From contig JAQXJC010000020.1 in assembly GCA_029008115.1 (NCBI GenBank), forward strand, positions 1-64,000: a stretch of 64,000 bases of DNA. Direction: 5' to 3'. The stretch comes from Desulfovibrionaceae bacterium. GTDB taxonomy: Bacteria > Desulfobacterota > Desulfovibrionia > Desulfovibrionales > Desulfovibrionaceae. A program made the position numbers and the translations under genes. Positions 2,334 to 57,160 of the stretch are shown here, one piece after another (the stretch's first letter is position 1; each line of letters starts with the position of its first letter). The notes under the pieces were generated by a model. That model worked only from the letters and a program-made list of their open reading frames with translations. It did no database searches and had not been told where the DNA came from.

Positions 2334-2360
2334 GCGAAGCTGAGGCGTATCAGGAAAAGG

Positions 2361-3359
2361 CTACTGCCTGCCCACAAGTCGCAGCAGGCGGACAAGCTGG
2401 TTGGTGAAGCCTGCCTCGTTGTCATACCAGATAATGAGCTTGGCCATGGTGCCGTTGAAGACCTGCGTGCTCATGGCGTCGACGACGCCGCCGTAGGTGC
2501 TGCCCTTGTAGTCGATGGACACCAGCGGCTCTTCGCAGAAGCCCATGTTCTCCTTCAGGGGACCTTCCGAGGCGGCCTTCAGCGCAGCGTTCAGCGCGGC
2601 CGTGTCCGTGGGCCTGTCCAGCTCGCAGGTCAGGTCAACCAGAGAAACCGTGGGCGTGGGCACGCGCACGGCCATGCCGTCCAGCTTGCCCTTGAGGGCG
2701 GGGATGACCAGCGCGGTGGCCTTGGCCGCGCCGGTGGAGGTGGGGATCATGGAGACGCAGGCGGCGCGCGCCCGGCGGGGGTCCTTGTGGGAGCCGTCCA
2801 GAATGCGCTGGCTCATGGTGTAGGAATGGATGGTGGTCATGAGGCCGTGGCGGATGCCGAAAGTGTCATTGATGACCTTGGCGGCCGGGGCCAGACAGTT
2901 GGTGGTGCAGGAGGCGGCGGAGATGACTTCGTGCGCGGCAGGATCATAGACATCCTGATTCACGCCCATGACGATGGTGGCGTCCGCATCCTTGCAGGGA
3001 GCGCTGATGACGACCTTGCGCGCACCGCAGGCCAGGTGCTGGGCCAGGGATGCCCTGTCCTTCAGCGTGCCCGTGGTCTCCACGGCAATGTCCACGCCCA
3101 GTTCCTTCCACTGCCATTCGCCCGCCTTGCAGCGCGTGACCCTGATGTGGCGGCCATTGATGATCAGGCCGTCGTCATCATGATCTACCGTTCCCTGAAA
3201 GATGCCGTAGCTGGAGTCGTATTTGAAGAGACGGGCCAGAGCGGCATTGTCCGCACGGGCGTTGATGGCGGTAACTTCCAGCTCGGGATCGGAAGCCAGC
3301 AGACGCACCAGATAGCGGCCGATGCGGCCAAAACCGTTAATGCCGAGTTTGACAGACAT
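2361..3359 (-). CDS. gap: Glyceraldehyde-3-phosphate dehydrogenase, type I
   Basis: Oxidises glyceraldehyde-3-phosphate to 1,3-bisphosphoglycerate. The Rossmann start is KLGINGFGRIGR, the catalytic cysteine sits in SAASCTTNCLAP and the substrate loop in PTSTGAAKA. I take the internal ATG preceded by GAAGGAGTG as the start (332 aa) rather than an upstream ATG without a ribosome site. Odd feature: the residue that normally binds the NAD ribose (Asp about 33, motif IND) is Ala34 (INARAD), and the usual LP pair before HKD is GS (ILDGSHKD). Both changes are those seen in NADP-using GAPDHs such as chloroplast GapA, so dual or NADP use is predicted. The gene follows fba by 36 bp in one operon. Confidence 0.97.
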   Translation of the reverse strand: MSVKLGINGFGRIGRYLVRLLASDPELEVTAINARADNAALARLFKYDSSYGIFQGTVDHDDDGLIINGRHIRVTRCKAGEWQWKELGVDIAVETTGTLKDRASLAQHLACGARKVVISAPCKDADATIVMGVNQDVYDPAAHEVISAASCTTNCLAPAAKVINDTFGIRHGLMTTIHSYTMSQRILDGSHKDPRRARAACVSMIPTSTGAAKATALVIPALKGKLDGMAVRVPTPTVSLVDLTCELDRPTDTAALNAALKAASEGPLKENMGFCEEPLVSIDYKGSTYGGVVDAMSTQVFNGTMAKLIIWYDNEAGFTNQLVRLLRLVGRQ

Positions 3360-3395
3360 ATTCACTCCTTCTTGATGTCGTGGCACAGAGGGGGG

Positions 3396-4322
3396 CTAGA
3401 AGCTGTTGCCGGAGCCCATGACGTTGCGGATTTTGTGCGCGACCATGTTCTTCACGGCTTCGCGCGCGGGCTTCAGGTAGCTACGCGGGTCGAAAGCTTC
3501 TGGATGTTCGCTCAGATACTGGCGGATGGACGCCGTGAGCGCCAGACGGATGTCCGTGTCCACATTGATTTTGCATACGGCCATGCCGGCAGCCTGCCGC
3601 AGCATGTCTTCGGGCACGCCTCTGGCGCCGCCCACATTGCCGCCGAATGCGTTGCACATATCCACAAATTCCTGCGGCACGGAGGATGCGCCATGCAGCA
3701 CCAGCGGATAGCCGGGCAGTTTTTTGCCTATGGCTTCCAGCCGTTCGAAATCCAGCCTGGCTTCTCCCTTGAACTTGTAGGCGCCGTGGCTGGTGCCGAT
3801 GGCGATGGCCAGCGAATCGCAGCCGGAGCGCTCCACAAATTCCACAGCTTCGTCAGGATCGGTGTATACATGCTCGGCGGAGGAAACGTGCTCTTCCACG
3901 CCGGCCAGCTTGCCCAGCTCTGCCTCCACCCACACGCCGCGCTCGTGCGCATAGTCAGCCACCTTGCGGGTGACGGCGATATTCTCTTCAAAGGGCAGGT
4001 GCGAGCCGTCAATCATGACGGAGGTGAAGCCCCCGTCGATGCAGTCTTTGCACAGCTCGAAGCTGGCACCGTGGTCCAGATGCAGCACGCAGGGGACGTC
4101 CGGGCTTTCGGCCAGGGCGGCTTCCACCAGCTTGACGATGTAGCCCTGTCCCGCGTACTTGCGTGCGCCGGCGGAAACCTGGAGAATCACGGCGGACCTT
4201 TCCTGCATGGCCGCGCTCATGATGCCTTGAATGATTTCCATGTTGTTGACGTTGAATGCGCCGATGGCATAGCCGCCGGCGTAGGCCTTGGCGAACATTT
4301 CCTTGGGACTGGTCAGGGGCAT
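3396..4322 (-). CDS. fba: Fructose-1,6-bisphosphate aldolase, class II
   Basis: Zinc-dependent aldolase that interconverts fructose-1,6-bisphosphate with the two triose phosphates. Class II marks are HLDHGASFE (zinc His and catalytic Asp), the EAELG segment, AIGTSHGAYKF (second zinc His and phosphate loop) and VLHGASSVP (third zinc His). Start chosen at MPLTSPKEMF because CCAAGGAG lies eight bases upstream, giving 308 aa; the longer frame has no ribosome site. First gene of a two-gene operon with gap, which handles the product of this reaction. Confidence 0.96.
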   Translation of the reverse strand: MPLTSPKEMFAKAYAGGYAIGAFNVNNMEIIQGIMSAAMQERSAVILQVSAGARKYAGQGYIVKLVEAALAESPDVPCVLHLDHGASFELCKDCIDGGFTSVMIDGSHLPFEENIAVTRKVADYAHERGVWVEAELGKLAGVEEHVSSAEHVYTDPDEAVEFVERSGCDSLAIAIGTSHGAYKFKGEARLDFERLEAIGKKLPGYPLVLHGASSVPQEFVDMCNAFGGNVGGARGVPEDMLRQAAGMAVCKINVDTDIRLALTASIRQYLSEHPEAFDPRSYLKPAREAVKNMVAHKIRNVMGSGNSF

Positions 4323-4515
4323 GGTCTGGACTCCTTGGAGAATGCGCGGAGAGCGTGCCGCAACAGGGCGGCATCTCCACAAAGGTTGCCTTCATGGCTG
4401 CGCGGTGCGCCGGCAGAAGCCTGCACGGGCGGAACGGCATCGCATGGCGGAAGACTCCGTCGCGCTGGGGCGCTTCCACGAAAGAAAAAAGTTTCGACCG
4501 CAGCGGAAAACCTTC

Positions 4516-43882: not shown

Positions 43883-43966
43883 CCTGCGGATGCATCATGT
43901 TGACATGCCGCCGTGCCCGCCGGTTTTTCGGAAGGGGCGCGGCGGCTTCCTTTTCAGGAGGCCGCT

Positions 43967-45652
43967 ATGGATGCCCATGTATTTCGACGGTGCTGCGAGG
44001 CGCTCGTCCCCCTGCTGACCGGAGCCAGACTGGAGAAAATCCAGTCTCCCGCGCCGGACGTGCATGTGTTCACGCTGTTCGCGCAGGGACGCAAGCAGTA
44101 TCTCTATCTGCGTGCGGGCCGCCAGCATCCCTTTCTCTTTCTGTCTTCCTGCAAGAGCTCCACGGGGGCGCAGCCTTCCGCGCAGGTCATGCGTCTGCGC
44201 AAATATGTCGGTGGCAGGCGCGTGACCGCCTGTGTGCCGGACTGGGCCGCGCGTCGTCTAAGCCTGCTGTGCGGCATGGTTGCCGAAGGCGCGCATGCCG
44301 GGGAGGAATGCTGGCTGGTGCTGGATTTGCGTGAAGGCCCGTCGCTCTGGATGGGCTGGGCCTATGGCCGCCCCGTGCCTGCGGCAGAGGAAGATGCGGC
44401 GCCGGAATCCTGTGAAGAGAAGGGAGGCATTGTGCCTCCCGCGGTGCGCTGGCCTGCGCCGGATCAGCTGGAGGAAGCCTGCGCCGGCTGGCGTTCCTGG
44501 CCGGTAATCACGCCTGCCCTGCGGCGTACCCTGCCGCATCTGGACAGGCTGGATCAGCTGGCCCTGCTGGCGGATTTGGAATACGGCGGCGGCGATCTCT
44601 TCTGCTATGCGGAGGATGGCGTGACGGATGCGGCAATGGAGATTTCCGCCTGGCCACTGCCGGCGGCCCTGCGCAGAGGCCGGGTGGAAAGCGTGCGCGA
44701 AGATGTGCTGGCCGCCGTAGCCGAAGTCGCTTCCGCGCACGTGCTGGGCGAGCTGACCAGAGCGGCACGCGCCAGTGCCGCCGTGCCTCTGGAGAAGGAG
44801 GCCGCCCGTCTTGGACGCATTCTGGAAAAGCAATGCGCCGAAGAGGCACGGCTGACAGCCATGTGTGCCGCGCAGGAGGATGCGCTGGCCTTGCAGGCCG
44901 TGCTCTGGCAGTTCCCGGCAGACATGAAGGCTGCGGTGCTGGATGTACCGCCGGCGGAGGCGGCGGCGCCCGGCGTACCCCTGCCCGCGGCCGGCGGAGA
45001 GCTGCCGCCACCGGAGACTGGCTGGCGGCGGCTGCGGCTGGACCCGCGCCTGACGCTGCGCGGCAATATGGAGGCGCTGTTTCACAGGGCCCGGCGCGGC
45101 AGACGCGGTCTTGCCTTTGTGGCGGAACGGCGTGCGCAGGTGCAGCGGGAGAGGGATGCCGCGCTGGAAGCCGCCGCCCGCGCCCGCATGGGACTGACGC
45201 CGGCCCTTGCGCCGCGCAAGGCCGCCGCGCCGGAAGCCGGGGCTGCGCTGGCGCGCGCCCTGCCCAGGGGAGTGCAGGGTTTTGTCTCCTCGGATGGCTT
45301 TGCCATTCTGCGCGGGCGTGATGTGAAGGGAAATCTTGCCGTCCTGCGCCTTGCCAGTCCGCATGACGTGTGGCTGCATGTGGAAGGCGGCCCGGGAGCG
45401 CATGCCGTGATCCGGCGCGGCTTTGCGGGGCAGGAGGTGCCGGAGCGCACCCTGCTGGAGGCCGGAGCGCTGGTGGCCTGCAAGAGCTGGCAGCGGGACA
45501 GCGACCGGGCCGCCGTACTCTATGCTGAAGCGCGACATGTCAAGCCCATGCGCAATGCCGCGCCGGGCAAGGTACGCATTGACAAGGTGCTGACTACCCG
45601 CGTGGTTCCCGCCGATCCGGATGCGGAGAAACGGCTGTCCCTGCCGGGATAA
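43967..45652 (+). CDS. NFACT family protein (RqcH/Rqc2 homolog, FbpA type)
   Basis: 561 aa. An N-terminal NFACT-N domain (MDAHVFRRCCEALVPLLTGA; RLEKIQSPAPDV), a middle helical region (about 230-330), and a C-terminal NFACT-R domain (GFVSSDGFAILRGRDVKGN; DVWLHVEGGPGAHAVIRR). RqcH binds stalled 50S subunits and adds C-terminal alanine tails. The Asp-Arg pair needed for tailing in other species appears to be replaced around VPDWAARRL, judged by eye. Ribosome site CAGGAGG. Follows dksA by 84 bp. Confidence 0.88.
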   Translation: MDAHVFRRCCEALVPLLTGARLEKIQSPAPDVHVFTLFAQGRKQYLYLRAGRQHPFLFLSSCKSSTGAQPSAQVMRLRKYVGGRRVTACVPDWAARRLSLLCGMVAEGAHAGEECWLVLDLREGPSLWMGWAYGRPVPAAEEDAAPESCEEKGGIVPPAVRWPAPDQLEEACAGWRSWPVITPALRRTLPHLDRLDQLALLADLEYGGGDLFCYAEDGVTDAAMEISAWPLPAALRRGRVESVREDVLAAVAEVASAHVLGELTRAARASAAVPLEKEAARLGRILEKQCAEEARLTAMCAAQEDALALQAVLWQFPADMKAAVLDVPPAEAAAPGVPLPAAGGELPPPETGWRRLRLDPRLTLRGNMEALFHRARRGRRGLAFVAERRAQVQRERDAALEAAARARMGLTPALAPRKAAAPEAGAALARALPRGVQGFVSSDGFAILRGRDVKGNLAVLRLASPHDVWLHVEGGPGAHAVIRRGFAGQEVPERTLLEAGALVACKSWQRDSDRAAVLYAEARHVKPMRNAAPGKVRIDKVLTTRVVPADPDAEKRLSLPG

Positions 45653-45758: not shown

Positions 45759-47672
45759 TTACTGCTTCACGTAGTTCAGCAGGCCGCCGGCCCTGATGAT
45801 GTCCAGTTCCTGCGCGCTGAGGTCATTCCGTACCAGCACCTCGCCCACGCCGGCGATGCTCACGGGCATGACGCCGCCGGCAGCCAGCTTTGTGGTATCG
45901 ATGCGCACGGCGGCATCGGCGGGGATGCGGGCGTAGTCCGCAGGATTGTCGAACGTCAGGGGCAGGATGCCGAAGTTCACCAGATTGGCGCGGTGGATGC
46001 GGGCCAGCGAGCAGGCCAGCACGGCGCGGATGCCGAGGTGGCGCGGCGCCAGCGCGGCATGCTCGCGGCTGGAGCCCTGTCCGTAGTTCTCGCGGGCCAC
46101 GATGACGCCATTGCCGGCGGCGCGGGCGCGCTGCACAAAGCCGGCATCCACACGTTCAAAGACGTGTTCGGCAATGGCCGGCACGTTGGAGCGCAGGGCC
46201 GTGATGGCCGCGCCGGCAGGCATGATATGGTCGGTGGTGATATTGTCCTCCACCTTCAGCACCACCTGCGCGTCCAGCGTATCTGGCAGGGGCGGGAACT
46301 TTTCCAGCGGCACGATGTTGGGGCCGCGCAGGATTTCCACGTCTTCGCCTTCCGGTGCGGGCTGGACGAAGAGATGCCTGATGGAAGGCACGTCGTCCGG
46401 CAGGGAAGGCTGCACGGGCGCTTCGCCCCAGGTGGCCGGATCGGAGAATTCCCCGCGCAGGGCTACCATGGCGGCAGTAAGCGGGCTGACCAGATAGACT
46501 CTGGCGTCCTTGGTGCCGCTGCGGCCTTCGAAGTTCCGGTTGAAGGTGCGCACGCTCACTCCGGCGGAGACGGGCGAGCCGCCCATGCCGATGCAGGGGC
46601 CGCAGGAGCATTCCAGCAGGCGCGCGCCGGAGAGCAGAATGTCGCCCAGGGCGCCTTCCATGGCCAGCATGTCCAGCACCTGCTTGGAGCCGGGCGAGAT
46701 GCAGGTGTCCGTGCTTTCACACAGGCGATGTCCGGCCACGATGTCCGCCACCTGCCGCAGGTCGGCATAGCTGGAGTTGGTGCAGGAGCCTATGGCCACC
46801 TGATTAACCTTCAGCCCGGCGAGCTGGGCCACGGGCACGACCAGATCGGGCATGTGCGGCTGAGCGGCCAGCGGTTCCAGCTCGCTCAGATTGATGGTGA
46901 TTTCCTCGTCATAGACGGCGTCCGCATCGGCGGTCAGTTCTTGCCAGTCCTGTTCGCGCCCCTGCGCCCGGAGGAAGGCGCGGGTGGTTTCGTCGCTGGG
47001 GAAGATGGAGGTGGTGGCGCCCAGCTCCGCACCCATGTTGGTAATGGTGGCGCGGTCGGGCACTGTGAGCGCCGCCACGCCGGGGCCGGCGTATTCAAAG
47101 ACCTTGCCCACGCCGCCCTTCACGGTAAGCCTGCCCAGCAGGTGCAGGATGATGTCCTTGGCTGCCGCCCAGCCGGTGAGCCGGCCGGTCAGCCAGACGC
47201 GCACAACCCTGGGCATGGGAATGGTATAGGGCTTGCCCGCCATGGCCAGCGCCACGGAAAGGCCGCCCGCGCCCATGGCCAGCGCGCCCATGCCGCCGCC
47301 CGTGGGGGTGTGGCTGTCGGAACCTACCAGAGTGACGCCGGGCTTGACGAAGTTTTCCAGATGGAGCTGATGGCAGATGCCCGTGCCGGGCGCGGAAAAG
47401 ACAGCGCCGAACTTGCGGGCCGTGGTGCGCAGGAATTGATGGTCATCCGGATTGCGGAAGCCCATTTGCAGGGTGTTGTGATCCACGTAGCTGACGGAGA
47501 GATCGGTCTTCACGCGGGGCACGTCCATGGCTTCAAACTGAAGCCAGGCCATGGTGCCGGTGGCGTCCTGCGTCAGGGTCTGGTCAATGCGCAGGTCCAC
47601 GGCCTTGCCGGGTTCCATGCTGCCTCCCACCATGTGGGCGGCGATGATCTTGTGTGTGATGCTCTGTCCCAT
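45759..47672 (-). CDS. acn: Aconitate hydratase
   Basis: 637 aa, the short bacterial form. [4Fe-4S] cysteines: IGSCTNSS and ECSCGPCIG. Others: GSDSHTPTGGGMGALAMGAG, NITTDHIMPAG and ENYGQGSSREHAAL (the C-terminal swivel domain). It interconverts citrate and isocitrate. Start MGQSITHKIIAAH after AAGGGAA. Third gene of the operon citrate synthase candidate - icd - acn, in the order of use apart from the last two. Confidence 0.95.
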   Translation of the reverse strand: MGQSITHKIIAAHMVGGSMEPGKAVDLRIDQTLTQDATGTMAWLQFEAMDVPRVKTDLSVSYVDHNTLQMGFRNPDDHQFLRTTARKFGAVFSAPGTGICHQLHLENFVKPGVTLVGSDSHTPTGGGMGALAMGAGGLSVALAMAGKPYTIPMPRVVRVWLTGRLTGWAAAKDIILHLLGRLTVKGGVGKVFEYAGPGVAALTVPDRATITNMGAELGATTSIFPSDETTRAFLRAQGREQDWQELTADADAVYDEEITINLSELEPLAAQPHMPDLVVPVAQLAGLKVNQVAIGSCTNSSYADLRQVADIVAGHRLCESTDTCISPGSKQVLDMLAMEGALGDILLSGARLLECSCGPCIGMGGSPVSAGVSVRTFNRNFEGRSGTKDARVYLVSPLTAAMVALRGEFSDPATWGEAPVQPSLPDDVPSIRHLFVQPAPEGEDVEILRGPNIVPLEKFPPLPDTLDAQVVLKVEDNITTDHIMPAGAAITALRSNVPAIAEHVFERVDAGFVQRARAAGNGVIVARENYGQGSSREHAALAPRHLGIRAVLACSLARIHRANLVNFGILPLTFDNPADYARIPADAAVRIDTTKLAAGGVMPVSIAGVGEVLVRNDLSAQELDIIRAGGLLNYVKQ

Positions 47673-47772
47673 GTTGTTTTCCCTTGGGGCGAACCGTTCG
47701 TTCGCCGCGCGATCGTGCGGAATGAAGTCTGCGGGGGCCGGGCGCATGCGTGGCGCTGCCCCCGGCAGTATG

Positions 47773-48912
47773 TTACAGACCGGCCAGAACCAGCTCGCCG
47801 AACTGCGTACAGCCTACGGTGGTGGAGCCGGCAATCTGTCCGGCAAGGTCGCAGGTCACGGTTTTGGCGGCGATGGCCTTGTTCACGGCGGCGCGGATGC
47901 GCGTGGCCGCGCCATGCCAGCCCACATGATCCAGCATCAGCGCGCCGCAGAGGATGAGACTTCCGGGATTGGCCTTGTCTTGTCCGGCAATGGTGGGCGC
48001 GGTGCCGTGCGTGGCTTCAAAGAAGGCCAGCGTGTCGGACATGTTGACCCCCGGGGCGAGGCCGAGGCCGCCCACCTGTGCGGCCAGCGCGTCGGAAAGA
48101 TAGTCGCCGTTGAGATTGGGCGTGGCAATAATCTGGTACTGTTCGGGATGGAGCAGGGCTTCCTGGAACATGGCGTCGGCAATGCGATCCTTGATGATCA
48201 GCTTGCCGTCCTGCGGTTCCTTTTCGGTGCAGGTCAGGTCGCCAAATTCCTGCGCGGCTACGTCATAGCCCCACTGGCGGAAGGCCCCTTCCGTGTACTT
48301 CATGATGTTGCCCTTGTGCACCAGCGTCACGGAGGCGCGCTTCTGATCCAGCGCGAAGCGGATGGCGCGGCGCACCAGCCGCTTGGAACCGCCTTCCGTC
48401 ATGGGCTTGAGACCGATGGCCGCATCCGGAGCGACCTTGGCGCCCAGGGATTCCAGCAGTTCCACCAGCTTTCTGGCTTCGGGGGTGTTGGCGGCATATT
48501 CGATGCCGGCATAGACGTCTTCCGTGTTTTCGCGGAAGATGACCATGTTCACGCGCTCGGGATGCTTCACCGGCGTTTCCAGCCCATCAAAGTACTGGAT
48601 GGGGCGGATGCAGGCATAGAGGTCCAGCGTGCGGCGCAGGGCCACGTTCAGGCTGCGGATGCCGTGGCCCACGGGCGTGCCCAGCGGGCCTTTCATGGCC
48701 AGTTCGGCATGGGCCAGCGTGTCCAGCGTTTCCTGCGGCAGCGGAGTGCCGGTTTCCTGCACGGCCTTTTCGCCGGCCAGCAGTTCCACCCATTCAAAAC
48801 TGTGTTCCTGACCATATTCCTTGGCCACGGCCGCGTCGATGACGGGGCGTGCCGCCTTCCAGCATTCCGCGCCGATGCCGTCGCCCTGAATCCAGTAAAC
48901 TCGCTTCTGCAT
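47773..48912 (-). CDS. icd: Isocitrate dehydrogenase
   Basis: 379 aa, shorter at the N-terminus than E. coli Icd. Marks: GIRSLNVALRRTLDLYACIR (substrate Ser and Arg residues), YAGIEYAA, LVHKGNIMKYTEGAF and DAMFQEALLHP. It decarboxylates isocitrate to 2-oxoglutarate. The coenzyme loop reads THGTAPTIAGQDKANPGS: the Lys-Tyr pair that binds the NADP phosphate in E. coli is Thr-Ile here, so NADP preference cannot be assumed. Lies between acn and the citrate-synthase-like gene. Confidence 0.95.
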   Translation of the reverse strand: MQKRVYWIQGDGIGAECWKAARPVIDAAVAKEYGQEHSFEWVELLAGEKAVQETGTPLPQETLDTLAHAELAMKGPLGTPVGHGIRSLNVALRRTLDLYACIRPIQYFDGLETPVKHPERVNMVIFRENTEDVYAGIEYAANTPEARKLVELLESLGAKVAPDAAIGLKPMTEGGSKRLVRRAIRFALDQKRASVTLVHKGNIMKYTEGAFRQWGYDVAAQEFGDLTCTEKEPQDGKLIIKDRIADAMFQEALLHPEQYQIIATPNLNGDYLSDALAAQVGGLGLAPGVNMSDTLAFFEATHGTAPTIAGQDKANPGSLILCGALMLDHVGWHGAATRIRAAVNKAIAAKTVTCDLAGQIAGSTTVGCTQFGELVLAGL

Positions 48913-48990: not shown

Positions 48991-50826
48991 CTATTCCTCG
49001 ATATCCGCGCTGTTGTGCGCTTCGTCGCGCAGCGCCTTGGCCCGCTGGAGCAGCTGTTCCAGCTGGATGTCCGCGCCGATGACGCCCACGATGTTGTCCT
49101 GCCCGTCCGTGACCGCGCAGGAAACGGTGATGATCAGCTTCCCCGTAAACTGGGACTGGTAGACATCCATGATGTGCAGGTCGCCGGAGTGCATGGGTTC
49201 CCTGAACCATTCGCGCTGGGAGAAGTCGTAGCCCAGCGGCAGGGCCTCGTAGCGCTCCCTGTAGGCCGGATCGGTAATGGCGGAGCAGGCCAGCTTGCCT
49301 TCGGTGTCCGTGAGATAGATGTACTGGATGAAGGGATAGTCCCGCACAAACTGATCGAGGCAGGGACAGGCTGTGGAGCCGCCGGCCAGCACGCGGGGGT
49401 CCTTCACCAGCGTGACGATGAGATAGGCTGCCAGCTCGCCGGCCAGGTTCTTCATGCGGTCGAAGTCCGTCACGAAGAGCTCCGGCATGTAGCGCTGCAC
49501 CAGAGCGGACATTTCATCATGCGAGAACGAGGTCGTGCGCCCTGTTTCCTCGTAGATGGCCATGATGCGGTCGTATATCTGCCCCACGGAGGGATGCTTC
49601 TTGGAGATGCGCTTTTCTTCGGGCAGGTTGAAGGTATTGTTGATCCAGTAGGCCACGCCGGCCCGGCCGGACTTGTCGGTAATGATGATGGGGACGGGGC
49701 GTCCGAGCAGGTTCTTGGTATCGAAGATATTGTAGATTTCTTCGTTCTTGGCCAGACCGTCCACGTGCACGCCGGCGCTGGTGGCGTTGAAGTCGCGGCC
49801 CACGAAGGGATAGTTGTGCGGGATGCTGTAATCCAGCTCCTTCTGGAAGTATTCGGCGATTTCATTGATGACGGTGGTGTCCGCCGCGAGATCGTCGCCC
49901 GTGAGGGAAATATACTCCACGGCCAGGGCCTCCAGCGGGGTGTTGCCCGTGCGCTCGCCAAAGCCCAGCAGCGTGCCGTTGACCGCGCCGCAGCCATTGA
50001 GCCAGGCCGTGACGCCATTGACCAGAACCTTGTGGAAGTCGTTGTGGCCGTGCCATTCCAGCTGGGCCGGAGGTACCTCGGCTTCATCCACGAAAGCGCG
50101 CACCACGCGCTGTACGGAGCGGGGCAGGGCCGCGCCCGCATAGGGCACACCGTAGCCCATGGTATCGCAGAGACGTATCTTCACCGGCATGCCGCTTTCC
50201 TGCGAAAGACGCATGAGCTCCTGCGCCAGCGGCAGGCAGAAGCCATAGATGTCGGCGCGGGTCACATCCTCGAAGTGGCAGCGGGGGACAATGCCCCATT
50301 CCAGAGCCTGCCGGGCCATGTCCAGATACATCTGCATGGCCTCGGCGCGGGTTTTGCCCAGTTTCAGAAAGATATGGTAGTCCGACACGCTGGTGAGCAT
50401 GCCCACTTCCTTGAATTCCATATCGCGGGCCAGCTGGAGGTCATTCTTATTGGCGCGAATCCATGCGGTGATCTGCGGAAAGCGGTAGCCCTTGGCGCGG
50501 CAGACTTCGATGGCCTTGCGATCCTTGGGGGAATAGATGAAGAATTCCGAGGCACTGATCAGGCCGGATTTGCCGCCGAGGCGGTAAAGCAGGTCGAAAA
50601 TTTTGGAAATCTGCTTTACGCTGTAGGGCGGGCGGGCCTGCTGGCCGTCGCGGAAGGTGGTGTCCGTGATGCGCATGACTTCAGCCGGGCGGGGCGCCAG
50701 CAGCACATCGTCAAACGTCGTGCGGCAGACTGACGTATAGGGAAACAGCTCGCGGTAGAGCTGTGGCTTGTCAGGGTTTTCCAGCGGGAGCCGGGGAGAG
50801 GGGATTTTGTTATGCAGCAGGGCCAT
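48991..50826 (-). CDS. Re-citrate synthase candidate (HMGL/isopropylmalate synthase fold) fused to a Cache-type domain
   Basis: 611 aa. Residues about 45-330 form a TIM barrel of the homocitrate/isopropylmalate synthase family: DTTFRDGQQARPPY (metal Asp), RLCDTMGYG, EWHGHNDFHKVLVNGV (metal His pair) and GFGERTGNTPLE. With icd and acn downstream, the likely product is citrate by Re-stereospecific synthesis, as known for Desulfovibrio. The C-terminal 150 residues (DYPFIQYIYLTDTEGKLACS; LPLGYDFSQREWFREPM; DIQLEQLL) look like a Cache sensory domain, with no membrane segment, in place of the LeuA regulatory domain. Ribosome site GGAG; start MALLHNKIPS. Confidence 0.82.
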   Translation of the reverse strand: MALLHNKIPSPRLPLENPDKPQLYRELFPYTSVCRTTFDDVLLAPRPAEVMRITDTTFRDGQQARPPYSVKQISKIFDLLYRLGGKSGLISASEFFIYSPKDRKAIEVCRAKGYRFPQITAWIRANKNDLQLARDMEFKEVGMLTSVSDYHIFLKLGKTRAEAMQMYLDMARQALEWGIVPRCHFEDVTRADIYGFCLPLAQELMRLSQESGMPVKIRLCDTMGYGVPYAGAALPRSVQRVVRAFVDEAEVPPAQLEWHGHNDFHKVLVNGVTAWLNGCGAVNGTLLGFGERTGNTPLEALAVEYISLTGDDLAADTTVINEIAEYFQKELDYSIPHNYPFVGRDFNATSAGVHVDGLAKNEEIYNIFDTKNLLGRPVPIIITDKSGRAGVAYWINNTFNLPEEKRISKKHPSVGQIYDRIMAIYEETGRTTSFSHDEMSALVQRYMPELFVTDFDRMKNLAGELAAYLIVTLVKDPRVLAGGSTACPCLDQFVRDYPFIQYIYLTDTEGKLACSAITDPAYRERYEALPLGYDFSQREWFREPMHSGDLHIMDVYQSQFTGKLIITVSCAVTDGQDNIVGVIGADIQLEQLLQRAKALRDEAHNSADIEE

Positions 50827-51042
50827 GACAGACTCCGGGTAAAATGAAGGGTATTCGGGCAGTATAGCCCGCAATGAGCCGGCAGTCCAGAGGTTGCTCG
50901 CCGGCCGGGCACGGAGCTTTCTCTTGCCATGCCTTTTGAAATTGCGGATACTGCTTCTCCCGGCGCGGCTGTGCGCCGGCGTATTTTTCTGTCCGGCGGG
51001 CGTCCTGCTGCGCAGGCATGCCGGAGCATGCAAGGAGGCATG

Positions 51043-53124
51043 ATGGCGGATTTGGTGCGATATCCCGGTGCGGGCTGCGTGGTGGAATACATGGAAGGAA
51101 ATGCGCCGCAGATTGCGCTGGTCATGGAGGAGCAGGCCGGGCGTCTGCGCCTGCTGCTGCCCAACAGGCGGGAAACGCGCCTGAACGCCGGGCGTCTGCT
51201 GCCCTGGGCGGGGCCGTCCTGTGGCAGCGGCATGAGCCGCGATGCCGCCATCAGAATGCTGGAGGAGCACCGCCGGCGGCGCGAGGAGCGCGCTGCCGCC
51301 ATTGATGTGCTGGCATTGTGGGAAATGGCGCAGGGAGAGCTGGAGCGCGCCGGAGCCGACTGGTTTGCCGAGCTTATGGAGGATGCCCCGGATGCGGATG
51401 CCGTGGCCGCCTACGGCCGCGCGCTGCTGGCCTGCAAAAGCCACTTCAAGTTCCAGCCGCCGGAATTTGAAATATATTCCGCCGAAACGGTGGAAAAGCG
51501 TCTGGCGGAACAGCAGGCGGCCCGCGAGCGCGAGGCCCTGATCATGGGCGGCGCGGAATTTTTCCGCGTGCTGTGGGAAGTGCACAGCCGCAAGCGCACC
51601 CTGCCGCTGGAAGGGGCGCCGGAATGGCCCGCTCCGGAGATTCAGGAGCGCTTGAAGGGCCTGATCATGGGACGCATTGCCGATCCCGAGACGCAGGTGG
51701 ACGATGTGCTGTGGCGCACGCTCACCCGCTCCCTGCCCGATGTGCAGCATCTTGCCCTGCATCTGGCCGAGGCGTGGGGGCTGGTGCCGCCGCATTACAA
51801 TTTCTGGCTGGATCGCGCGGACTACGCGCGCGGTGACAGCTGGTGGGAATCGTGCGCTGCGGATGTGGAGGCGGTGATGGCGCGTGTGGATGCCCTGAAG
51901 GCGGACTGTGCCACGCCCTTCCTCAGCATAGACAGTTCCACCACGCGGGACGTGGACGACGCCTTTTTTCTTGAAGAGCGGCCTGAAGGCGGCTGGCGCG
52001 TGACAGTGGCGCTGGCCTGTCCCCCGGCCTGCTGGGAATTCGGTTCCGCGCTGGACAGGCTCGTTGCGCGGCGCGGCACCAGCATCTATCTCCCGGAGGG
52101 AACGCTGCACATGATGCCCGAGGTGCTGGGCACGGACGCGCTTTCCCTGCTGGCCGGCAGGGTTCGTCCCTCGCTGTGCGTGACCTGCGATGTCGATGCG
52201 GATGGGGCCGTGCTTTCCTGCGCGCCTTCGCTGCGCGTGGTCAGTCTGGCCGCCAATCTGTGCTACACGGACTGCGAGGCCGTGCTGGAAGGGACTGCGG
52301 ACAATGCCGCCAGCCCCTATGCCGGGCAGATACGCATGGGCCACGCGCTTGCGGAAGCCCGGCGGCAGGCGCGCATTGCGGCAGGCGCCGTGATTATGGA
52401 GCGTCCCGATCCGCATCTGGCGCTGGAGGGAGAGGGCGCGGACGTGCGCGTGCTTTTGGAGGAAGACAGGCCCGCCGCCCGTGCGCAGGACCTGGTGGCC
52501 GAGATGATGATCCTGGCCAGCGCCGCCATTGCGGACTGGGCCGTGGAGCGTGACATTCCCATGCTGTTCCGCACGCAGGATGTGGCCCTGCCCAGGGAAT
52601 ACGCCGGCGTCTGGAAGGAACCCCACGAAATGGCGCGCATCATGCGCGCGCTGGTTCCCTCCAGTCTGGACGTGCTGCCGCGCCGCCACGCCGCGCTGGC
52701 CGTGAACCGCTATGCGCCTGTGACATCCCCCCTGCGCCGGTATCCGGATTTGATCAATGCCGCGCAAATCGTCTCCTTTCTGCACGGCGGCACGCCCCGG
52801 CTGGATGCTGATGCCATGAGCAGTTTGCTCATGTCGCTGAATATCCGGCTGGATGCCGCCGGACAGGTGCAGCGTTTCCGTCCCCGCTACTGGAAGCTGC
52901 TCTATTTTCGCCAGCAGGGCGACAAGATGTGGTGGGATGCCGTCATCACGGAGGAAAACGACATGTGGGCCACGGTTTCCCTGCCGCGCGAGCAGCTGTT
53001 TGTGCGTGGCAGGCGTCACATTTTTGGGGAGCGGGCCTGCCCCGGGCAGGCTGTGCAGGTGCGGATTGGCAAGGCCAACCCGCTGTACAACGAAGTGCAG
53101 CTTCTGGAAGTGCGGGAGGCCTAA
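51043..53124 (+). CDS. RNase II/R family exoribonuclease
   Basis: 693 aa. The RNB domain (about 285-600) has the metal Asp cluster FLSIDSSTTRDVDDAFF and the late motif RYAPVTSPLRRYPDL. The N-terminal 280 residues are helical and unlike the cold-shock domains of E. coli RNase II; a short OB-like end (FVRGRRHIFGERACPGQ) may replace the S1 domain. It would degrade single-stranded RNA 3' to 5'. The second of two adjacent ATGs is chosen because AGGAGG lies four bases upstream of it. Confidence 0.87.
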   Translation: MADLVRYPGAGCVVEYMEGNAPQIALVMEEQAGRLRLLLPNRRETRLNAGRLLPWAGPSCGSGMSRDAAIRMLEEHRRRREERAAAIDVLALWEMAQGELERAGADWFAELMEDAPDADAVAAYGRALLACKSHFKFQPPEFEIYSAETVEKRLAEQQAAREREALIMGGAEFFRVLWEVHSRKRTLPLEGAPEWPAPEIQERLKGLIMGRIADPETQVDDVLWRTLTRSLPDVQHLALHLAEAWGLVPPHYNFWLDRADYARGDSWWESCAADVEAVMARVDALKADCATPFLSIDSSTTRDVDDAFFLEERPEGGWRVTVALACPPACWEFGSALDRLVARRGTSIYLPEGTLHMMPEVLGTDALSLLAGRVRPSLCVTCDVDADGAVLSCAPSLRVVSLAANLCYTDCEAVLEGTADNAASPYAGQIRMGHALAEARRQARIAAGAVIMERPDPHLALEGEGADVRVLLEEDRPAARAQDLVAEMMILASAAIADWAVERDIPMLFRTQDVALPREYAGVWKEPHEMARIMRALVPSSLDVLPRRHAALAVNRYAPVTSPLRRYPDLINAAQIVSFLHGGTPRLDADAMSSLLMSLNIRLDAAGQVQRFRPRYWKLLYFRQQGDKMWWDAVITEENDMWATVSLPREQLFVRGRRHIFGERACPGQAVQVRIGKANPLYNEVQLLEVREA

Positions 53125-53217: not shown

Positions 53218-54387
53218 CTAGTCGCCGAAATGCCCGCTTTCCTTCTTCACATCGAGGGCGATCTTCCAGAGCAGGGAGAGCACCAGCGCGCCGATGGCAT
53301 AGACGCCGAGGGCCACGACGACTTCAGCGCAGGTGGGCGCATAGGGCGTCACGGCTTCATACATGTTCGGCGTGAAGCCACCGATGAGCAGGCCGAGGCC
53401 CTTGTCGATCCAGCTGGCGAGCACCAGCATGCCGAGGGCGTAGGGCAGGAGCTTCATGTTGTCGCGCAGGCTGGGCGGAATGAGCATGGCCAGCGAGGCG
53501 AAGGCCATGATCACGGCGGCCCACATCCAGTAGGTCACCCATGCCACGTGGCCGTCATGCCCGGAGAACAGGAAGACCAGGGGTTCCATGTGGCCGGGGA
53601 TGTTGCTGTAGAAGGCGGTGAAGAGTTCCAGGCAGTAGAAGAACACGTTGATGCACATGGCATACGTGATGATCTTCGTCAGGGTCTTGACCGCATCTTC
53701 ACCGGGATTGAAGCCGGTGAGGCGCTTCAGCAGGAAGACCAGCAGCAGCAGGATGGCGGGACCGGAGCAGAACGCCGAGGACAGGAAGCGGGCGGCCATG
53801 ATAGCGGTCAGCCAGTAGTGGCGGCCCGGAACGCCGGCGTACAGGAAGGCGGTCACGGTGTGGATGGAGAAGGCCCAGATGACGGACAGGTACACGAAGA
53901 ACTTGATCCACTTGGGCGGCTCCACGCCCAGGCGCTCGGCTTCCAGCGTGACCCAGCCGATGAGGGCATTGAGGCACAGGTAGCCGATGAGCACGATCAT
54001 GTCATAGAACATGACGGAGTTGGGCGTGGGGTGCAGCAGCACGTTGGCCATGCGCTGGGGCTGGCCAAGGTCCACGACGATGAACAGGGCGCACATGATC
54101 ACGGCGGAGATTGCCATGAATTCGCCGAAGATGATCATGCGCTTGAACTTCTTGTAGTGATGGAAGTAGGCCGGCAGCACCAGCATGACGGCCGAGGCCG
54201 CCACACCCACAAAGTAGGTGAACTGCGAGATGTACAGGCCCCAGGAGACGTCGCGGTTCATGCCCGTGATGCCCAGTCCCTGCTGGAGCTGCTGCCAGTA
54301 GACGCAGAGACAGCCGAGGATGACCACGCACAGGAAGGCGAGCCACATGTAGTAGCGTTTGGAGCCGGTCAGAAGTCTTTCTACCAT
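53218..54387 (-). CDS. dsrP: DsrP, NrfD-like membrane subunit of the DsrMKJOP complex
   Basis: 389 aa with about ten membrane helices. NrfD/PsrC-type quinone-interacting protein; it passes electrons between menaquinone and the periplasmic DsrO/DsrJ module. Typical segments are LVLPAYFHHYKKFKRMIIFG, DLGQPQRMANVLLHPTPNSV and FCSGPAILLLLVFLLK. Last gene of the operon, 12 bp after dsrO, and followed by the terminator. Confidence 0.96.
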   Translation of the reverse strand: MVERLLTGSKRYYMWLAFLCVVILGCLCVYWQQLQQGLGITGMNRDVSWGLYISQFTYFVGVAASAVMLVLPAYFHHYKKFKRMIIFGEFMAISAVIMCALFIVVDLGQPQRMANVLLHPTPNSVMFYDMIVLIGYLCLNALIGWVTLEAERLGVEPPKWIKFFVYLSVIWAFSIHTVTAFLYAGVPGRHYWLTAIMAARFLSSAFCSGPAILLLLVFLLKRLTGFNPGEDAVKTLTKIITYAMCINVFFYCLELFTAFYSNIPGHMEPLVFLFSGHDGHVAWVTYWMWAAVIMAFASLAMLIPPSLRDNMKLLPYALGMLVLASWIDKGLGLLIGGFTPNMYEAVTPYAPTCAEVVVALGVYAIGALVLSLLWKIALDVKKESGHFGD

Positions 54388-54399
54388 GGCGTGTTCTCC

Positions 54400-55167
54400 C
54401 TAGATGAGGTAGTAGACGCCGGGTTGCGTGCCCAGCGAAGGCTTGCGGCGGATGCTGAAGTTTTCGGCCAGAGCCTTGCGCACCACGGAGTTCGGGTCTT
54501 CAAGGTCGCCGAAGAGCACGGCGCCGTTGGAGGCTTCCACGCAGGCGGGCAGCTGGCCCTTGGCCAGACGCTCGGCACAGAAGGTGCACTTTTCCACAAC
54601 GCCGATCATGCGCGTGGGATAGGCGGGATTCGGCACGGGATCGGCCAGATGCTTGCGCGGGTCGACGAAGTTGAAGGAACGCGCGCCGTAGGGGCAGCCG
54701 GCCATGCAGAAGCGGCAGCCGATGCAGCGGTGGTAGTCCATGGCCACGATGCCGTCGGCCATCTTGTAGGTGGCCTGCGTGGGGCACACGCGCACGCACG
54801 GAGGATTGGTGCAGTGGTTGCACAGCAGGGGGAACATGCCCTTCTTGAATTTTTCGGGCAGCTGGGCGTTCATGTCGTCGGTGAAGACGCGGTCATATTT
54901 GTCCAGCCACATCCACTTGATATTCTGGTTGCCGGGCACGTCGGGCACGTTGTGCGCCTTGTGGCAGGCTTCGATGAGGGGCTTGTAGTCCTCGGCGCTG
55001 GTGAACTTGCGCGTATCGATGACCATGGCCCAGCGCTTGGCCTTCAGGCCCTGCGCGTTGGGCTCGTAGGAGCCTGCCTGGGCCTGGGCGACTCCGGCCA
55101 GGCCGGCGCTCAGGGCGCAGGCGGAGATGCCCGCGACTTTCAGGAAGTGTCTTCTGCTGTTGTTCAT
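54400..55167 (-). CDS. dsrO: DsrO, periplasmic iron-sulfur subunit
   Basis: 255 aa with a twin-arginine signal (NNSRRHFLKVAGISACAL), so it is exported folded. Clusters: CNHCTNPPCVRVCP, CIGCRFCMAGCPYGA and CTFCAERLAKGQLPACVEA, which would hold up to four [4Fe-4S] centres together with a fourth set. It links DsrJ and DsrP. Its ATG overlaps the dsrJ stop by one base. Confidence 0.96.
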   Translation of the reverse strand: MNNSRRHFLKVAGISACALSAGLAGVAQAQAGSYEPNAQGLKAKRWAMVIDTRKFTSAEDYKPLIEACHKAHNVPDVPGNQNIKWMWLDKYDRVFTDDMNAQLPEKFKKGMFPLLCNHCTNPPCVRVCPTQATYKMADGIVAMDYHRCIGCRFCMAGCPYGARSFNFVDPRKHLADPVPNPAYPTRMIGVVEKCTFCAERLAKGQLPACVEASNGAVLFGDLEDPNSVVRKALAENFSIRRKPSLGTQPGVYYLI

Positions 55168-55547
55168 TACTTCTTCCCCTTGGGCTCAATATGGCAAGTC
55201 CAGCAGTAGGGATACACGCTGTTGGTGATGTGACACTTGTCGCAGAATTCTGCGGGCTGGTTGTGGCACTTCAGGCAGGTGTTCTGGAGGCTGATCTCCC
55301 ATTTCTTGCCATTGGAAGCGACGTAGGTGCGGTTTTCGTTGCGCAGAGCCTGGTCGCGCCATTCGTTGAGCAGCTGCATGTGCTCGGCACGCATGAATGC
55401 CGCGGGCTCGATGCACTCCTTCTCGCCCTGGGGCAGGACGAGCTCGGGCCGCTGGTAGCTGCCGCTGAGCATGCCGGCCCAGAAGGGCGTGGAGAACAGC
55501 GCCACGAAGACGATGATCCCGGCGATCACATACTTGGCGTTATACAT
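55167..55547 (-). CDS. dsrJ: DsrJ, triheme cytochrome c
   Basis: 126 aa. An uncleaved-looking N-terminal helix (YVIAGIIVFVALFSTPFW) anchors it on the periplasmic side. Three heme sites lie close together near the C-terminus: CLKCH, CDKCH and CWTCH. Cys45 in GEKECIEPAAFM is the conserved residue proposed as the unusual His/Cys heme ligand. One-base overlaps (TAATG) with dsrK before and dsrO after. Confidence 0.96.
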   Translation of the reverse strand: MYNAKYVIAGIIVFVALFSTPFWAGMLSGSYQRPELVLPQGEKECIEPAAFMRAEHMQLLNEWRDQALRNENRTYVASNGKKWEISLQNTCLKCHNQPAEFCDKCHITNSVYPYCWTCHIEPKGKK

Positions 55548-57160
55548 TATTCATCCTCCTGCACGCCGGGCAGGTCTTCCTGCCGCAGGTCCATGGTGCG
55601 CTTGCATTCGCCCTTCATGACAAGGGCGTTCGCGACAAGTTCATGCACGCCGCTCACGGTGACGCCCGGAGCCCAGTAGTTGGCCAGCGGGGGCAGGGTG
55701 GCGCGGTCGATGGCGCAGACACAGGCCATGTGGTTGACGCCGTACTTTTCCTGCACGTAGCGCAGGGCATTGCCGCGGGGCATGCCGGAGCGCATGCGCA
55801 GCTCCATGATTTCCTCGGTGTTCAGGCCGGAGCCGGCGCCACAGCAGAAGGTCTGCTCGCGGATGGTCTGCTCGGGCATTTCCACGAAGTTGTTGCACAC
55901 GGCCTTCAGGATGGCGCGCGGCTCTTCCAGCAGGCCCATGGCACGGGCGGGGTTGCAGGAATCGTGGAAGGTGGTGATGATGTGGTCGTTACGGCTGGGA
56001 TCAAGATTCAGCTTGTTATGCTTGATAAGGTCGGCCGTGAACTCCGTGATGTGCACCATCTTGGTGGACAGGGCGTTCTTGAACACCGTGCCCGTGATGG
56101 GGGAGACGGGCGTGCCCATGGTCTCCGGCGCGGGGCCGTTGTAGGTGTCCATGTACTGGTTGATCACGCGCCACATGTGGCCGCATTCGCCGCCCAGAAT
56201 CCACTTGGCGCCGAGGCGGCGTGCTTCGGCGTACATCTTGGCGTTCAGCTTCTTCGCCATGTTGAAGGTGGTGAAGGAGCCGAAGTTCCCACCTTCGGAA
56301 GCGTAGGTGGAGAAGGTGTAGTCTAGGTCCAGCTCGTGGAACAGCATCAGATAGCCCATGAAGGTATAGATGCCGGGGTCCGCGAACACGTCGCCGGAGG
56401 GGGTGATGAACAGAATTTCGTGGCCCTTCTCGTTGAAGGGGGTCTTGGGACGGATGCCGGTGATGGTTTCGCAGTCATCGGCCAGCATTTCCACGATTTC
56501 CACGAAGGAATGGGGCTGGATGCCGAGGTGGTTGCCCGTTACGTTGCAGTTCTTCACAGGGTCCATGATCCAGTGGATGCCCAGGCCCACTTCGTGCAGC
56601 AGTTCACGCACGATGGCCGTGATCTCGGCGGTGTCGATGCCGTAGGGGCAGAACAGGGAGCAGCGGCGGCATTCGGTGCACTGGTAGGCGTAGTAGAAGA
56701 GTTCCTTCACCACTTCCTTGTCCCAGCTGCGGGCGCCGGCGCGCTTGCCGAGGATCTTGCCCAGCTTGGTGTAGTCGCGGCGGTACAGGGAGCGCAGCAG
56801 CTCGGCACGCAGCACGGGCATGTTCTTGGGGTCGTTGGTGCCCAGGAAGAAGTGGCACTTGTCGGCGCAGGCGCCGCAGCGCACACAGATGTCCATGAAC
56901 AGCTTGAGGGAGCGGTGCTTCTGCAGGCGTTCCTCAAAGGCGTCACAGAGGATCTGTTCCCAGTTTTCGGGCAGGTTCCAGTCTTCGGCCGCCGGATCCC
57001 AATCGTGGGGATTGGGCATGTGCAGCAGCTCCATGGTTTCCTTCTTGGCCGGATAGCAGAAGCTGCCCGGCGCAAACTGGGGCTTGATGTCCAGCCAGGG
57101 TTCCGAGGGAAACTCGGGACGGCTGGCGATGAGTTCTTGTGGCGTAGGTAATTTAGCCAT
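55547..57160 (-). CDS. dsrK: DsrK, HdrD-like cytoplasmic iron-sulfur subunit
   Basis: 537 aa. Two [4Fe-4S] sets (CVRCGACADKC and CTECRRCSLFCPYGID) and CCG-type cysteines in HDSCNPARAMG and FCCGAGSG that hold the special cluster of HdrB/HdrD proteins. It is thought to receive electrons from DsrM and reduce the DsrC trisulfide, joining sulfite reduction to membrane energy conservation. Lies 12 bp after dsrM. Confidence 0.97.
   Translation of the reverse strand: MAKLPTPQELIASRPEFPSEPWLDIKPQFAPGSFCYPAKKETMELLHMPNPHDWDPAAEDWNLPENWEQILCDAFEERLQKHRSLKLFMDICVRCGACADKCHFFLGTNDPKNMPVLRAELLRSLYRRDYTKLGKILGKRAGARSWDKEVVKELFYYAYQCTECRRCSLFCPYGIDTAEITAIVRELLHEVGLGIHWIMDPVKNCNVTGNHLGIQPHSFVEIVEMLADDCETITGIRPKTPFNEKGHEILFITPSGDVFADPGIYTFMGYLMLFHELDLDYTFSTYASEGGNFGSFTTFNMAKKLNAKMYAEARRLGAKWILGGECGHMWRVINQYMDTYNGPAPETMGTPVSPITGTVFKNALSTKMVHITEFTADLIKHNKLNLDPSRNDHIITTFHDSCNPARAMGLLEEPRAILKAVCNNFVEMPEQTIREQTFCCGAGSGLNTEEIMELRMRSGMPRGNALRYVQEKYGVNHMACVCAIDRATLPPLANYWAPGVTVSGVHELVANALVMKGECKRTMDLRQEDLPGVQEDE

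Follow-up and report, generated by a model that had tools for sequence, protein, structure and literature searches.

A chemoreceptor-type Cache domain on the tail of a Re-citrate-synthase-like enzyme suggests an intracellular amino-acid switch

Syntrophus aciditrophicus and Clostridium kluyveri are named as having known Re-citrate synthases, and Desulfovibrio vulgaris is described as a user of such an enzyme (PMC12016533). The Syntrophus and C. kluyveri enzymes are HMGL-type citrate synthases from anaerobes without Si-citrate synthase, and the enzyme studied here appears to be of the same kind. No description of Re-citrate synthase regulation was found in the open-licence literature. LeuA and CimA are among the closest known systems; in them an HMGL barrel at the first step of a biosynthetic route is followed by a C-terminal regulatory module. 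In those enzymes the module is LeuA_dimer, whereas the present enzyme has a Cache domain in its place.

In descriptions of prokaryotic signalling, Cache domains figure as the main sensors of the cell's outside, and the part of the 2016 survey of the superfamily consulted here gives signal-transduction outputs for nearly all families and does not mention metabolic enzymes (PMC4822843). The same part names YkuI_C and Diacid_rec as principally intracellular families. YkuI, an EAL barrel followed by YkuI_C, resembles our enzyme in that a TIM-barrel protein carries an intracellular domain of the Cache clan at its C-terminus, and YkuI_C matched 11 of 64 homologues of the present enzyme. It is, however, a signalling protein rather than a central metabolic enzyme, and its domain belongs to another Cache family. 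In the dCache_1AM proteins of Actinobacteria, too, a Cache domain has been turned to sensing inside the cell, which is described as a "rare example" (PMC10104139); they differ in standing alone beside a transcription factor and in having amines as ligand class. In the open-licence literature we found no paper in which Re-citrate, homocitrate or isopropylmalate synthase is connected with a Cache domain.

The window, a 64,000-nucleotide stretch of Desulfovibrionaceae DNA, encodes such a protein. The gene (cs) occupies 48991-50826 on the minus strand, stop codon included, and its 611-residue product is a Re-citrate-synthase-like enzyme with a C-terminal Cache module (ORF call, Pfam, AlphaFold2); the coordinates given in an earlier note on this DNA hold. 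An in-frame extension of the ORF to 53190 is spurious, as it overlaps an oppositely transcribed RNB gene, and a chimeric ORF or assembly artefact was ruled out by the same architecture in more than 70 other records. Downstream on the same strand lie icd, for an NADP-dependent isocitrate dehydrogenase (47773-48912; NCBIfam NF005425, 503 bits against a cut-off of 490), and acn, for an aconitate hydratase (45759-47747; NF005558, 920 bits against 612), with intergenic gaps of 78 and 25 bases. The earlier note was right that the TIM-barrel enzyme heads an operon with these genes, but the order is cs-icd-acn rather than acn-icd. No terminator-like site was found within the operon on its own strand. 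A possible sigma-70 promoter (TGGACT-17-TATACT, 50861-50889, minus strand) precedes the cs start codon by about 35 bases; it is a consensus match from a scan that gave 3 promoter-like sites against 1.0 expected. The upstream neighbour is a divergent gene for an RNB-domain exoribonuclease of the RNase II/R superfamily (50929-53124, plus strand), which scores well below the named-family cut-offs. The window further carries dsrP, dsrO, dsrJ and dsrK of the DsrMKJOP complex (53218-57160, minus strand), each above its NCBIfam cut-off, which makes sulfate or sulfite reduction likely in the source organism. A gene of the NFACT family (RqcH/FbpA-like; 43913-45652, plus strand) is matched weakly by curated models, and an Rfam search of the window gave no match.

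The catalytic part is an HMGL-like DRE-TIM barrel (residues 52-305, 49912-50673, minus strand; PF00682, E 8e-33), whose best Foldseek match was the homocitrate synthase 6ktq (E 4e-24). The segment R59-D60-G61-Q62-Q63 (50638-50652) is the region that holds the catalytic arginine and a metal ligand in Claisen condensing enzymes. Its aligned counterpart in 6ktq is REGEQ, and that of the metal-binding motif H259-G-H261 (50044-50052) is HAH; the segment and the motif are both invariant in 64 aligned homologues. In the same alignment R59, D60, Q63, E94, H259, H261 and H354 are invariant, and all of them except E94 have an aligned counterpart in 6ktq. From what is known of HMGL enzymes we take these residues to supply the catalytic Arg, the metal site and the catalytic His, so that the barrel has the complete set that a Re-citrate synthase should show. 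H354 lies in a post-barrel linker or subdomain (residues 306-447, 49486-49911) that is weakly HCS_D2-like (E 0.11; a match in 31 of 64 homologues). The nearest NCBIfam models, for homocitrate and isopropylmalate synthases, all score far short of their cut-offs, which places the enzyme outside these named families.

The C-terminal domain is virtually certain to be a Cache module, as the earlier note had proposed. It forms a single cytoplasmic Cache/PDC unit (residues 448-601, 49024-49485, minus strand), with helices at 454-474 and 483-496 followed by a PAS-like sheet. Pfam detected dCache_1 (PF02743) at residues 476-601 (E 1e-14, 55 bits against a cut-off of 45) and MCP-like_PDC_1 (PF22673) at residues 498-592 (44.9 bits against 27), and all 64 aligned homologues matched both. 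The dCache_1 match spans profile positions 57-164 of 240, which is the first module only, and the second PDC of a double Cache is missing. AlphaFold2, run on the 64-sequence alignment, gave a pLDDT of 90.2 for the full-length protein and of 89.2 for the isolated domain, with the long N-terminal helix of the Cache fold. Foldseek searches with the domain returned Cache/PDC sensors as best matches: the sporulation kinase KinD first (E 4e-9), then Tlp3, CtaA, PctA, PctC and Mlp24 among others. A truncated or chance domain is ruled out by the profile matches, the fold and the conservation throughout the family.

Hydropathy detected no membrane helix (maximum over 19 residues, 1.16), which supports the cytoplasmic location suggested before and rejects a membrane or periplasmic one. 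The usual but non-defining position of Cache domains, outside the cytoplasm between membrane helices, is thus not found here; since intracellular Cache families are described in the part of the survey consulted (PMC4822843), a soluble location is compatible with Cache membership. LeuA_dimer (PF08502) was absent by Pfam from all 64 aligned family members, which rejects a LeuA-type identity and bears out the idea that the Cache domain stands where the LeuA-type domain would be.

What such a domain may bind is suggested by the dCache_1AA sensors PctA, Tlp3, CtaA and Mlp24, which it resembles in fold and in having the Y/R/W/F/Y/D motif found in their membrane-distal module. It differs from them in being single, soluble and fused to a metabolic enzyme, and in that most of its family has another residue in place of the first Tyr. 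In dCache_1AA domains, docking and crystal structures show that the first Tyr, the Arg and the Trp contact the ligand carboxylate, while the second Tyr and the Asp contact the amino group (PMC10104139, PMC11237719). By alignment, the predicted pocket of our protein consists of Y533, R538, W540, F541, Y556 and D586 (49069-49230, minus strand), corresponding to PctA Y121, R126, W128, Y129, Y144 and D173, and all six positions of the motif are filled. W540 and D586 are invariant among the 64 homologues, and R538, F541 and Y556 are highly conserved. Position 533 is variable: most members have Glu, Ser, Thr, Asp or others, and an aromatic residue occurs nearly only in the order of the window organism. 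In a domain-profile alignment, five of the six positions were found in 76 of 86 family members and all six in 15 of 86, so the full motif does not hold across the family. Because the PctA Tyr121 position is replaced in most members, the pocket outside the window's relatives would be a non-canonical dCache_1AA pocket. For comparison, 34 ordinary dCache_1 proteins were collected from the order and from the organism's own genome; 12 were alignable over the six positions, and 7 of these 12 had the full motif.

From these residues a carboxylate ligand is likely, and we put an amino acid at about an even chance. The earlier note had suggested an organic acid or an amino acid; the sequence favours the latter over a plain organic acid because the amino-group aspartate D586 is invariant, yet R538 is common to the pyruvate sensor KinD. 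A fairly unlikely alternative is that the domain senses pyruvate, oxaloacetate or 2-oxoglutarate, 2-oxo acids through which precursor or product supply would activate or inhibit citrate formation. The KinD sensor, solved with pyruvate (4jgp), is the top Foldseek match and the second-best profile match, and R538 aligns with its carboxylate arginine Arg131, which is Ala in the R131A chain. However, KinD is an extracytoplasmic kinase sensor with no Asp counterpart of D586, the residue that would make the amino-group contact, and W540 and Y556 likewise follow the amino-acid sensors.

The Cache domain might also have ceased to bind any ligand and serve only oligomerisation or stability, which we consider unlikely. 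The C-terminal part evolves faster (mean column identity 49% versus 63% for the whole protein), and the domain is absent from all sampled Bacillota homologues. The candidate ligand contacts W540, D586, R538 and F541 are nevertheless among the most conserved residues, and mere dimerisation would not need them. A ligand-binding allosteric role for the Cache domain is the probable one in our judgement, short of being assured.

The distribution of the fusion argues against a recent event. A scan of genome contigs, many of them from metagenome bins, found relatives in Desulfobacterota, Nitrospirota, Spirochaetota, Lentisphaerota, Elusimicrobiota, Omnitrophota, Armatimonadota, Fibrobacterota, Auribacterota and others, nearly all of them Cache-fused; the fusion occurs in at least eight phyla besides Desulfobacterota. 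Within Desulfobacterota the enzyme was present in 97 of 198 genomes, and the match ran through the Cache domain in 93 of these, ended near residue 450 in two and was fragmentary in two. Unlike the window enzyme, the Bacillota homologues (in 32 of 299 genomes) end before the Cache domain, with 32 of 32 matches stopping at or before about residue 464. The Cache-less Bacillota rows are nested within Cache-fused rows of the barrel tree, a tree whose root is unsafe, with very long outgroup branches, and in which one paralogue (L119) is doubtfully labelled Cache-bearing. This nesting favours an old fusion with later losses, and together with the phyletic spread it rejects a recent local fusion. The earlier note had missed this wide spread and the probable age of the fusion. 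On plasmids just two relatives turned up, both from Deinococcus, with 37-38% identity and a match that ends before the Cache domain.

The Syntrophaceae and Bacillota homologues share about 47-61% identity and fall in one tree with the window enzyme. The Syntrophaceae homologues are Cache-fused proteins of 71.2-71.9 kDa. The Re-citrate synthase subunit of Syntrophus aciditrophicus, in work by Kim et al. in 2013, reportedly measured about 72.9 kDa with its tag. Since the two sizes are close, that enzyme probably carries the same Cache domain, and its purification may already have yielded an active Re-citrate synthase with the fusion.

We regard it as highly probable that the enzyme is a Re-citrate synthase, in line with the citrate-synthase role that the earlier note had proposed. 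Si-citrate synthase (PF00285) was not found in the organism's own genome, which is rated 99.9% complete, and the two other HMGL enzymes of this genome pass the cut-offs for 2-isopropylmalate synthase (LeuA) and citramalate synthase (CimA), both with a LeuA_dimer domain. Among 198 Desulfobacterota genomes, 13 had both this enzyme and Si-citrate synthase, 84 this enzyme alone, 74 the Si type alone and 27 neither (Fisher p 3e-18), and among 59 nearer relatives the respective numbers were 1, 31, 20 and 7 (p 6e-9); these tests of mutual avoidance used gene presence and absence only and counted genomes without correction for phylogeny. Genes of the aconitase family and for isocitrate dehydrogenase adjoin the enzyme in Syntrophorhabdales and Elusimicrobia too, and an aconitase gene does so in Bacillota. 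Citrate would be the product because of the operon with icd and acn, the missing Si-citrate synthase, the separate LeuA and CimA, and the mutual avoidance. Homocitrate, citramalate or a related 2-hydroxy acid as product is very improbable: the NCBIfam models and the 13 genomes with both enzymes speak for it, but the evidence just given and the description of D. vulgaris as a Re-citrate synthase user (PMC12016533) speak against it.

In those 13 Desulfobacterota genomes, and in one further genome (G053), the co-occurrence of both enzyme types could reflect a division of labour. Two diverged paralogues (L118, 3136-4485; L119, about 2350-4326, minus strand) occur in other gene contexts in Desulfovibrionaceae genomes with Si-citrate synthase. 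The first has no Cache domain, and the tail of the second could be a decayed one.

Taken as a whole, a Re-citrate synthase with an amino-acid-sensing allosteric Cache domain is our best explanation, with a probability of roughly 45%. The Re-type barrel would condense acetyl-CoA and oxaloacetate by metal-dependent HMGL chemistry. The aconitase and NADP-isocitrate dehydrogenase of the operon would then turn citrate into 2-oxoglutarate, from which glutamate is made; the genome has genes of the GDH family and for glutamate synthase. The Cache domain, in the cytoplasm and at the site where LeuA has its allosteric domain, would hold an amino acid by its alpha-carboxylate and alpha-amino group. The effector would most plausibly be glutamate or another end product of the citrate-to-glutamate route, and glutamate itself as the physiological effector is put forward only tentatively. 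By analogy with LeuA, ligand binding might be signalled to the barrel via the linker region 306-447, and the effect would then be feedback control.

A chemoreceptor-type sensor on the tail of a citrate enzyme thus suggests that an intracellular amino acid switches the enzyme. In about half of the sampled Desulfobacterota, and in other phyla, the enzyme that commits carbon to glutamate synthesis would thus bear a Cache domain. If the domain is an amino-acid feedback site, it would account for the regulation of Re-citrate synthase, and Cache would join LeuA_dimer and RAM in a recurring pattern, in which HMGL enzymes exchange the regulatory domain at their C-terminus. The predicted solubility of the domain makes this directly testable.

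The closest non-enzyme relatives of the domain that we found are the C-terminal Cache domains of methyl-accepting chemotaxis proteins (MCPs) in Desulfovibrionales (L121, L122, L123, L187 and L189-L192). They differ from the enzyme's domain in having chemotaxis signalling as output. Against a profile of the enzyme Cache domain they scored 91-114 bits, versus 30 or less for ordinary receptor Cache domains. They are placed after the signalling domain and are apparently cytoplasmic, and two of the proteins, L189 and L190, seem on reading to have no membrane helices at the N-terminus. These similarities point to a branch of soluble C-terminal Cache domains that would have two outputs, enzyme and chemotaxis. 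It is a speculative and rather doubtful extension that the whole branch reads one intracellular amino acid, perhaps glutamate, for citrate synthase feedback in many phyla and for chemoreceptor signalling in Desulfovibrionales. If it were true, a domain class known for extracellular sensing would gauge the cell's own anabolic state. In the Cache tree, six ordinary receptor domains with long branches were also placed, doubtfully, among the Desulfovibrionaceae enzymes.
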